DNA of 64,000 bases from a bacterium. Its GTDB lineage: Bacteria; Vulcanimicrobiota; Vulcanimicrobiia; Vulcanimicrobiales; Vulcanimicrobiaceae. The position numbers were made by a program, and so were the translations under genes. The DNA lies in the NCBI GenBank assembly GCA_021790935.1, contig JAJYFL010000009.1, positions 14,213 to 78,212 of the forward strand. The letters are read 5' to 3'. Shown here piece after piece: positions 4,739 to 7,501 of this stretch; the stretch's first letter is position 1, and every line of letters starts with the position of its first letter. The notes below the pieces were generated by a model. That model saw only the letters and a program-made list of their open reading frames with translations. It made no database searches and was not told the origin of the DNA.

Positions 4739-5566
4739 TTAGAAGAGCAGCGTGGTGAACTCGCCGACGCGCCTAAACCCGGTGCGCTCGTAGAGTGCGA
4801 GCGCGCGCACGTTGAAGCCGTTGACGTAGAGCGAGATCGTCGGGACGTTCTCCAGCAATCGCTCGCAGACGCCGAAGAGCGCCGCGCTCGCAAGACCGCG
4901 CCCGCGGAGCGCGGGCGGCACCCAGATGCCCTGTAGTTGCAGCGTGCGTTCGCTATGCGGTCCGGCGTTGCAGAAGAAACACAGGTCTCCCGCGAATTCG
5001 CCGACCCACCAGAGCCCGGCGTCGATCATCCGCCGGACGTTCGCATCGAACGCCGAGCCGTATGTGCGTGGGTCGTACTCGAGCTCGGCTTGGATCATGC
5101 GAGCCGAGTTGCGAGCCACCGCCTCCCATTCCGCCGGCGTCGCACGCCGAACGAGCACGCCGCCGGAGGCGCCGCGCAGGGTTTTACGCTCGACCATGAG
5201 GAGCGGTTGCTCGTCTCGGACGATGCGAGGCGGGACGTGGCGGCCGCGTACGATCTTCCAATAGCGCGCGACGGTCTCGCGCCGGCCGACGATCATCCGT
5301 TCGTGCGGGTAGCTTGGCGCAATAGCGGCAAGTGCGGCAACGGCATCCTCGCCCTCGGCGGCGATGACAACCTGGCGCCCGAAATACGCAACGCCGGAGA
5401 CCGTTCCGCCGCTCGCGTAGACGTAGGTCGCCGCACGCGTATCGATCCACGGGTCTCGCTCGATCAACCAGGTGAGGAAGACGTTTTCGTACGGCGCGCG
5501 CGCGAGGTATGCGATAGCGGGGCGGACGTTCGCATCGCCGATCGGCTCGACGCCGGCGGCCTTCAA
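4739..5566 (-). CDS. GNAT family N-acetyltransferase, two-domain
   Basis: A 275-residue protein with a C-terminal GNAT fold. The acetyl-CoA motif A is seen as GIWVPPALRGRGLASAAL, and the C-terminal part NVRALALYERTGFRRVGEF is the classic final strand/helix. The N-terminal half (VRPAIAYLARAPYENVFLTWLIE) resembles the extra domain of DUF4081-type GNATs. The frame is open far upstream, but that part is antisense shadow of the sigma/anti-sigma gene. The start chosen is TTG at 5566, which overlaps the upstream TGA (TTGA), a coupling pattern used elsewhere in this window. The substrate is unknown. Its position directly after a transmembrane anti-sigma fusion suggests co-expression with that gene. 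Confidence 0.85.
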   Translation of the reverse strand: MKAAGVEPIGDANVRPAIAYLARAPYENVFLTWLIERDPWIDTRAATYVYASGGTVSGVAYFGRQVVIAAEGEDAVAALAAIAPSYPHERMIVGRRETVARYWKIVRGRHVPPRIVRDEQPLLMVERKTLRGASGGVLVRRATPAEWEAVARNSARMIQAELEYDPRTYGSAFDANVRRMIDAGLWWVGEFAGDLCFFCNAGPHSERTLQLQGIWVPPALRGRGLASAALFGVCERLLENVPTISLYVNGFNVRALALYERTGFRRVGEFTTLLF

Positions 5567-6504
5567 CTCAGTTTGACGACGAATGCCGGTACGCTCGTCG
5601 GTTGTTTGCTGCCGCCGTTCGGCTCGGCGCTCACGGCAACCGCGACGATCGCCTTTCCGTCGACGGGCAGAGCGACGACCGCCGTACCGTTGCGGTTGGG
5701 GACGAACGTGAGCGATGGCGACATCCGTTCCGCACCGGCATGCAGCGTCCACGCTTGGTATACGCGCCCCTTCGGCGGCATCGGCATGCCGCTCATCGCA
5801 AGGTAGACGTGCGCGCCGCGTCTTATGACCTCGCCATGCGGGACCGCATAGCGCTGCGAACGCACCGAGACTAAGTCTGCAAGCATCTGCTGCTGCTTCG
5901 CGACGCCGCGTGCAAGTTCGCGGGACCGGCCGGATGCTTGCGCGAGGCGCATCTGCTCCCTGCGCAGCTGACCGCTTATCGAGATGTTCGTAATAGATGT
6001 AACGAGCGCGATCGCGAGACACGCCGCCGCCACCAGGTACGCCGGCCAGACGATCGGGCGAGCCGATCGGAGAGGCGCTGCGGCGGGACGTTTCGCCGCG
6101 CGCGACCGAAATGCATCGGCGCGAACGCGGCCCATGATCGATTGCTTCAGCCGCGAACCGGGAACCGCTCCCGCCGCCGCTTTAAGCGGCGCTTCGGGGA
6201 ACTCGCCTTCCGGGCGAGTGGATCTGCTCCGAAGCAGATCGAGCGCGTGCGTACGCGTCAGGCGAGCGATCCACGGCGGAAAATCGCCCTGCTGAAAGGT
6301 GTCGGGAGCGCTCCAGATACTCAAGAACACCGCCTGCGTCACGTCTTCCGCGTCTCCCACGTCCGCAAGAATCTGCAGGGAGATGCGGTAAACGAGACGG
6401 TTGTGAGCGTCGTAGAGTTCCTCGAACGCGCCGGCATCGCCGGCACGCACGCGAGCCATGAGCCGCTCTGCGTCTTCCACGGATATGTGTTTCGCTTCAT
6501 TCAA
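5563..6504 (-). CDS. Sigma-70 region 2 fused to RskA-type transmembrane anti-sigma domain
   Basis: A 313-residue fusion. Residues about 15-100 are an ECF sigma region 2 (GDAGAFEELYDAHNRLVYR, DAEDVTQAVFLSIW, then PPWIARLTRTHALDLLRSR). No region 4 helix-turn-helix follows. Instead the sequence passes into a linker like that of anti-sigma-K factors (PGSRLKQSIMGRVRAD, about 119-134), one transmembrane segment (about 150-172) and the extracytoplasmic RskA C-terminal domain (YAVPHGEVIRRGAHVYLAM, PPKGRVYQAWTLHAG). The usual zinc-type anti-sigma N-terminus is missing. In known systems the sigma factor and RskA are separate, adjacent genes. Here sigma2 seems to take the cytoplasmic place of the sigma-binding domain. 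Without region 4 it probably cannot recognise a -35 box by itself; it might be a decoy or a membrane-tethered regulator (inference). It lies 10 bp downstream of the cyclase-like gene. Confidence 0.85.
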   Translation of the reverse strand: MNEAKHISVEDAERLMARVRAGDAGAFEELYDAHNRLVYRISLQILADVGDAEDVTQAVFLSIWSAPDTFQQGDFPPWIARLTRTHALDLLRSRSTRPEGEFPEAPLKAAAGAVPGSRLKQSIMGRVRADAFRSRAAKRPAAAPLRSARPIVWPAYLVAAACLAIALVTSITNISISGQLRREQMRLAQASGRSRELARGVAKQQQMLADLVSVRSQRYAVPHGEVIRRGAHVYLAMSGMPMPPKGRVYQAWTLHAGAERMSPSLTFVPNRNGTAVVALPVDGKAIVAVAVSAEPNGGSKQPTSVPAFVVKLS

Positions 6505-6514
6505 GGAATGCCCG

Positions 6515-7501
6515 CTACGGCGGCAGTCGCACCGGCGGCCCCTGGCCGTCTTCGTAGGTGCCGATCAACGGCGGCGGCGGGGGCATGGCGGGCGACTCGT
6601 CGTCTACGCTCGAGAACGCAGGCATAGCCGGTCGCGACGAATGCGGGGAAGGCGGGGGAGGCGAGGTTTCGGCCTCCGGCGTACCGCGCACGACGGTCCG
6701 CGCGAAATTCCCTTCGGCAGGCATGCGCAGCCGGTCGTTCGCATCCTTCGTGAGTCCGCGCACGATATATGCTTGTGCCAGGCGCTTCAGCCCGCGCAGC
6801 GGAACCGTGCTGGCCGGAACGCCAACGAACAGGTCGGCGACCGGGTCGAACGTACTCGCCGAAGCGAGCACGTACGCGTTCAGGTCCTCGGCCGCTTCCT
6901 GCAGGCGCGCGGCGACCTGCGCGGGATTGCCCACGATGGCATACTCTCGGCGTTGCTGAAAACCGACGTCTCCCGCAACGATTTTTCCGGAATTCACGCC
7001 GATCGTCACGTCGAACGGTTGGCGCTCCTGCGCTTGCCAGCGAGCGTTCATGGCGCTGACCATGCGCACGATGTCGAGGCAGGCGCGCAACGCGCGCTCT
7101 TCTTGAAACGGCTTATCGATCAGCACGCCGAAGACGCCCGTGATGCCGTCGCCTCGCAGACTCTCGATCATGCCGCCATGGCTCCCGATGGCGTTGCCGG
7201 CGATCGCGTGGAACTCGTTGAGATAGCGCAGCGTCTCTTCGGGGGTTAGATTCTCCGCGAAGAGCGCATAATTTCGAATCCTGCACGAAACGATCGTTGC
7301 GTAATACTCGTGCGCTTCGAACAAGCGCGGGTCTTTGCGGGCGAGCAGCCCCTCCACCACCTGCGGCGTGACGTAGCGCGAAAACAACTCCCGCACGCGG
7401 CGGCTCTCTTCGCGCGCCCGCGCATAGCGTTTGAATATCTCGTAGACCGCCACGCCCGCCAGAGCGAGCGCCGCCGCCGCGGTGGCTAAGATCGCGCCCA
7501 T
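6515..7501 (-). CDS. Membrane-anchored class III adenylate/guanylate cyclase-like protein, degenerate active site
   Basis: A 328-residue protein with one N-terminal transmembrane helix (about residues 3-23), a short linker, a class III cyclase homology domain (about 55-245) and a Pro/Ser-rich C-terminal tail (about 275-328). The first metal-binding Asp of the family (as in ADIRGF) is Arg here (CRIRNY). The second Asp is kept (RGDGITGVFG), but the substrate-selecting Lys two positions earlier in the family motif is Ser. The motif GDAVNLAAR reads GNPAQVAAR, so the transition-state Asn is Gln; the following Arg is kept. Catalysis by the usual two-metal mechanism is therefore unlikely, and a nucleotide-sensing or scaffold role is possible. 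The ATG follows the GH15 stop codon by one base (TAATATG), so co-translation is likely. Confidence 0.82.
   Translation of the reverse strand: MGAILATAAAALALAGVAVYEIFKRYARAREESRRVRELFSRYVTPQVVEGLLARKDPRLFEAHEYYATIVSCRIRNYALFAENLTPEETLRYLNEFHAIAGNAIGSHGGMIESLRGDGITGVFGVLIDKPFQEERALRACLDIVRMVSAMNARWQAQERQPFDVTIGVNSGKIVAGDVGFQQRREYAIVGNPAQVAARLQEAAEDLNAYVLASASTFDPVADLFVGVPASTVPLRGLKRLAQAYIVRGLTKDANDRLRMPAEGNFARTVVRGTPEAETSPPPPSPHSSRPAMPAFSSVDDESPAMPPPPPLIGTYEDGQGPPVRLPP

Follow-up and report, generated by a model that had tools for sequence, protein, structure and literature searches.

The analysed window is a 64,000-nucleotide stretch of DNA from a bacterium of the family Vulcanimicrobiaceae. 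An open reading frame on its minus strand (5563-6504; 313 aa in the ORF list, counted from TTG) encodes a single protein with the domain order sigma region 2, linker, one transmembrane (TM) helix, and RskA_C. The gene immediately upstream encodes an adenylate/guanylate cyclase (6515..7501, minus strand) and is syntenic in many relatives; its C-terminal proline-coding tract (6515-6700) varies in length among the three congeners compared below. On the other side lies a DUF4081+GNAT acetyltransferase gene (4739..5566, minus strand), a constant neighbour of RskA_C. Its TTG start overlaps the stop codon of the fusion gene (TTGA, 5564-5566) in the same way in all three species, which suggests that the two genes may be translationally coupled.

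The TTG at 6504 was rejected as the start codon because it is not conserved, being replaced by TCG in both congeners (G002 and G001). The first start codon common to all three species is the GTG at 6480 (VEDAERLM...), which is the likelier start and gives a probable coding sequence of 305 aa (5563..6480, minus strand). Residue numbers of the fusion are nevertheless counted from TTG 6504 throughout.

The Pfam annotation identified just two domains, Sigma70_r2 at residues 30-95 (E 1e-13; PF04542, 51 bits versus a cut-off of 24) and RskA_C at residues 158-304 (E 4e-15; PF10099, 56.8 bits versus a cut-off of 29.4). Neither sigma region 4 (PF08281/PF04545) nor a zf-HC2/RskA_N domain (the zinc HxxxCxxC anti-sigma domain) was found in the fusion protein with Pfam, and the genome has no PF08281 match at that place. 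The sequence-only reading had described this domain order, the loss of region 4 along with the zinc anti-sigma part, and a topology with one TM helix between sigma region 2 and RskA_C, and all of these features were confirmed.

All parts of the gene lie on the minus strand. Sigma regions 2.1-2.2 (residues 9-60; 6325..6480) are supported by Pfam, conserved residues, and dN/dS, and are followed by regions 2.3-2.4 (residues 61-97; 6214..6324), the half that reads the promoter -10 element. Comparison with intact relatives placed the fusion junction at about residues 102-107 (6184..6201). It falls within a linker (6055..6213), the distal part of which comes from the anti-sigma juxtamembrane helix (VPGSRLKQSIMGRVRAD) according to the sequence and the model. 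The TM helix (WPAYLVAAACLAIAL...; 5977..6054) was assigned from the sequence and is a helix in the model, the extracytoplasmic helical stalk (5878..5976) was taken from the structure model, and the RskA_C beta-sandwich domain (5566..5877) was supported by Pfam, the model, and the codon model. In the predicted structure (mean pLDDT 87), the sigma2 helices form a bundle modelled with confidence, the TM segment and stalk make up one long helix, and RskA_C is a beta-sandwich. The modelled sigma2 fits region 2 of E. coli sigmaE (4lup) with a TM-score of 0.82; the RskA_C model resembles a generic beta-sandwich, with no match to solved structures at E<0.001.

Occurrence in the genus and origin of the fusion

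The same fusion frame, free of indels, is present in the congeners G002 (92% identical) and G001 (86%), whose contigs are those of the MAGs BP5.bin84 and YF1.bin76. The fusion was thus found in 3/3 species of the genus examined, and the same open frame in three species rules out chance, misassembly, or a single-strain deletion. As one single match, it occurs only in these three among 99 genomes of the family. In its own genome, region 2 was detected at 11 places, nine of them with a PF08281 region 4 just downstream; of the other two, one is a primary-sigma-like protein of 410 aa and one is the fusion, which lacks region 4. RskA_C is single-copy in this genome, and neither the protein search nor the RskA_C search revealed a second intact sigma/anti-sigma copy elsewhere in it.

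In most other genera whose locus was read, two overlapping genes are found, one for a sigma factor with regions 2 and 4 and one for an anti-sigma factor with a TM helix and RskA_C, in the gene order GH20 (reversed) - cyclase - sigma - anti-sigma - GNAT. The zinc finger/N-terminal anti-sigma domain is recognised by Pfam in the relatives G026 and G029, and the sister group g35+g28+g25 in the tree of three neighbouring genes is intact (support 92). Around residues 102-107 of the fusion, matches to the sigma factor give way to matches to the anti-sigma factor; in G036, the corresponding points are about 400 bases apart. One in-frame deletion of ~0.39 kb accounts for the fusion. The comparison shows that it took place in the ancestor of the genus, in a pair consisting of an ECF sigma factor and an RskA-type zinc anti-sigma factor. 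The deleted stretch, about 0.39 kb long in G036, spanned region 4, the overlap of the two genes, and the zinc anti-sigma domain; its loss joined sigma region 2 to the anti-sigma juxtamembrane segment, the TM helix, and the extracytoplasmic RskA_C. The possibility raised in the sequence-only reading, that close relatives carry two intact genes and this one is a deletion in a single strain, holds in its first part but not in its second: close relatives do hold two intact genes, whereas within the genus the fusion has become fixed.

Selection and residue conservation

Selection tests, which were exploratory (three low-divergence sequences; several comparisons with uncorrected p values), gave a pairwise dN/dS of sigma2 of 0.54-0.67 within the genus, compared with 0.05-0.12 for intact pairs. 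Amino-acid changes exceeded those of the flanking genes both in sigma2 (p 0.0015 and 0.008) and in region 2.3-2.4 (p 0.001 and 0.0004). For a three-species codon model, sigma2 was split at residues 60/61, an approximate domain border chosen by the analyst; with one neutral rate, omega was 0.16 (0.05-0.34) for regions 2.1-2.2, 1.26 (0.77-1.95) for regions 2.3-2.4, and 0.18 (0.09-0.30) for RskA_C. With the rate left free per region, the values were 0.26, 1.05, and 0.19, respectively; RskA_C was below 1 at p 2e-4, and regions 2.1-2.2 were borderline (p 0.05). Under the free rate, sigma2 and RskA_C differed (p 0.03), and the difference between regions 2.1-2.2 and 2.3-2.4 was non-significant (p 0.10). 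The TM-RskA_C part is under purifying selection (p 7e-13 with the fixed rate and 4e-6 with the free rate). Residues 9-40 are identical across the three species. The linker is relaxed, as is sigma2.

Sigma region 2 is the part that reads the -10 element (PMC8103513, PMC6372665). R44 and N85, both invariant in 22 intact sigmas, are lost in all three fusion species, N85 being replaced by T/T/K. K62 (22/22 intact sigmas) is S/K/N in the fusions and is lost in two of them, while position 74, N in 20/22, carries D in all three. K62 and N85 presumably correspond to K56 and N80 of E. coli sigmaE. Retained in the fusions are E53, D54, Q57, and F60 of region 2.2 and, just beyond it, W64. In a leave-one-out comparison at 45 conserved sites, the fusion sigma2 showed 7-9 departures versus 0-6 in intact sigmas, most of which had 0-3. 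One alignment (A3) had its first row in a wrong frame, and that row was excluded.

Sigma-free RskA_C loci in other lineages

The sigma gene has been lost from the same locus in g19, g27, g30, and g51, leaving TM-RskA_C alone beside GNAT (L042:8835-9518, L043:9223-9750, L044:9187-9702, and L057:8984-9490). No sigma remnant was detected upstream of the orphan RskA_C in these four lineages. The TM-RskA_C protein can begin just before the TM helix in g19, g30, and g51; g27 retains a shortened zinc-type N-terminus that is no longer recognised by Pfam. The dN/dS of the orphan RskA_C is 0.18-0.26 (Fisher p 5e-5 or less). In species of g51 (L054, L056, and L058), a further sigma/anti-sigma pair, which is intact, is encoded elsewhere and not beside GNAT. 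In G007 of the genus g6, the match was confined to an RskA_C frame of 159 aa, seen apart from its usual neighbours (L045:8677-9003).

The sigma-free lineages are separated by intact ones in the tree, some inner nodes of which are weak (support 44-58). Because intact lineages lie between the sigma-free ones, the simplest count is at least four separate sigma losses besides the fusion, with the inner nodes that bear on this count being partly weak. A history in which the fusion is ancestral and sigma2 was lost later elsewhere is disfavoured by the same intervening intact lineages, with a support of 44-58 at some of the inner nodes.

Known systems and possible roles of the fusion

The sigma part and the anti-sigma part of the fusion can each be traced to a SigK/RskA-type pair at the same syntenic place; the fusion differs from such a pair in being a single chain that lacks region 4, responsible for -35 recognition, and the zinc/RskA_N domain, which makes the anti-sigma contact. 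RskA has been reported to act on SigK, through its N-terminal part, both as an inhibitor and as an activator (PMC7509140); it is this part that the fusion lacks. IutY of Pseudomonas putida likewise holds a cytoplasmic sigma, a TM helix, and an extracytoplasmic anti-sigma in one polypeptide, but it is a proven working ECF sigma freed by Prc and RseP (PMC5411451), whereas in the fusion the sigma is incomplete for want of region 4, the outer part is RskA_C, and the promoter-reading half is relaxed. In ECF48, ECF52, and ECF53 (PMC8999054), a sigma is also fused to membrane-bound parts derived from an anti-sigma factor; their C-terminal TM extension contains a zinc finger, in contrast to the fusion, where both a zinc domain and region 4 are lacking. 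In the B. subtilis SigO-RsoA system (PMC8103513), RsoA similarly has only region 2 of a sigma factor, but it works with the sigma4 protein SigO and has no RskA_C, and no such partner adjoins the fusion. Each of IutY, ECF48/52/53, and RsoA has a defining feature that is absent from the fusion or at best putative in it. The literature searched on orphan or degenerate anti-sigma systems yielded nothing relevant.

From the genomic comparisons and the selection tests, the locus probably carries a dismantled sigma/anti-sigma regulator that is kept for its extracytoplasmic RskA_C domain, sigma2 being mostly a relic. With parts missing and constraint lost, the fusion would no longer serve as a sigma factor under regulation; such a function is unlikely because region 4 is gone and the -10 reader is decaying. 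Purifying selection on RskA_C, together with at least four independent losses that retained TM-RskA_C, argues for a sigma-independent role of this domain, and the gene is probably kept because membrane-anchored RskA_C serves such a role at the cell surface. Sigma2 would now be mostly a cytoplasmic N-terminus that the ribosome must read through, with its promoter-facing side decaying. The relic part of this reading is weakened because residues 9-40 are unchanged and an omega of 0.16-0.26 in regions 2.1-2.2 indicates more constraint than expected of a pure relic, and because the core-binding residues are retained and the sigma2 fold is predicted with high confidence.

The same observations bear on a membrane-tethered binder of core polymerase, in which the sigma2.2 face would sit on the beta' clamp and polymerase would be held, or other sigmas outcompeted, under RskA_C control. 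The retained E53, D54, Q57, F60, and W64 fit this role, the acidic DAED motif of region 2.2 having been reported to contact beta' (PMC8999054), as do the nearly unchanged regions 2.1-2.2 beside the neutral regions 2.3-2.4 and the similarity of the predicted fold to sigmaE region 2. Against it, the constraint on regions 2.1-2.2 is borderline at the free rate, R44 and other conserved sites have changed in that half, and four other lineages without sigma2 still retain RskA_C, so sigma2 is unneeded for the conserved role there. We regard such a binder as rather unlikely, and a membrane-anchored half-sigma that grips core polymerase without promoter recognition, tethered by RskA_C and answering an outside signal, as unlikely. 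The active roles proposed in the sequence-only reading are on the whole disfavoured. Sequestration of core polymerase, one of them, keeps a basis in the retained region 2.2 face; that the fusion acts as a decoy for an anti-sigma in trans is unsupported, the cognate anti-sigma domain being gone and RskA_C being single-copy.

That the whole gene is a decaying pseudogene without current function is improbable: neither the sigma nor the anti-sigma function survives, and sigma2 and the linker are relaxed, but the frame is open in three species and the selection tests already contradict decay, with TM-RskA_C under purifying selection here and RskA_C likewise constrained in the sigma-free lineages. 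We consider it very improbable that a sigma2 fragment is released by proteolysis, as in IutY, and pairs with a separate region-4 protein, as in SigO-RsoA. The genome encodes M50 site-2-type proteases, IutY is activated through Prc/RseP cleavage (PMC5411451), and sigma2-only proteins can pair with a sigma4-only partner (PMC8103513). No region-4-only partner adjoins the fusion gene, however; region-4-like matches without region 2 occur elsewhere in the genome, their sigma4 identity being putative. Release of a working sigma2 is unlikely with the promoter-reading half evolving at an about neutral rate (omega about 1) and N85, K62, and N74, among them family-invariant residues, changed. Retention of the RskA_C frame mainly for translational coupling to GNAT is hardly credible, since coupling, which the conserved overlap and the adjacency of RskA_C and GNAT across the family would allow, requires only an open frame, yet in RskA_C the amino-acid sequence itself is conserved.

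The extracytoplasmic domains of anti-sigma factors are commonly taken to be sensors whose sole purpose is to control the partner sigma. In this one family, at least five dismantlings of the pair appear to have taken place at a single locus, one of them leaving the sigma2 fusion, with the membrane-bound RskA_C retained under selection each time beside the same acetyltransferase gene. If this is true, RskA_C would have a function in its own right, and the name anti-sigma factor would be wrong for those orphan RskA_C proteins that are annotated with it. The fusion may represent an intermediate that makes the idea of an own role for RskA_C testable.
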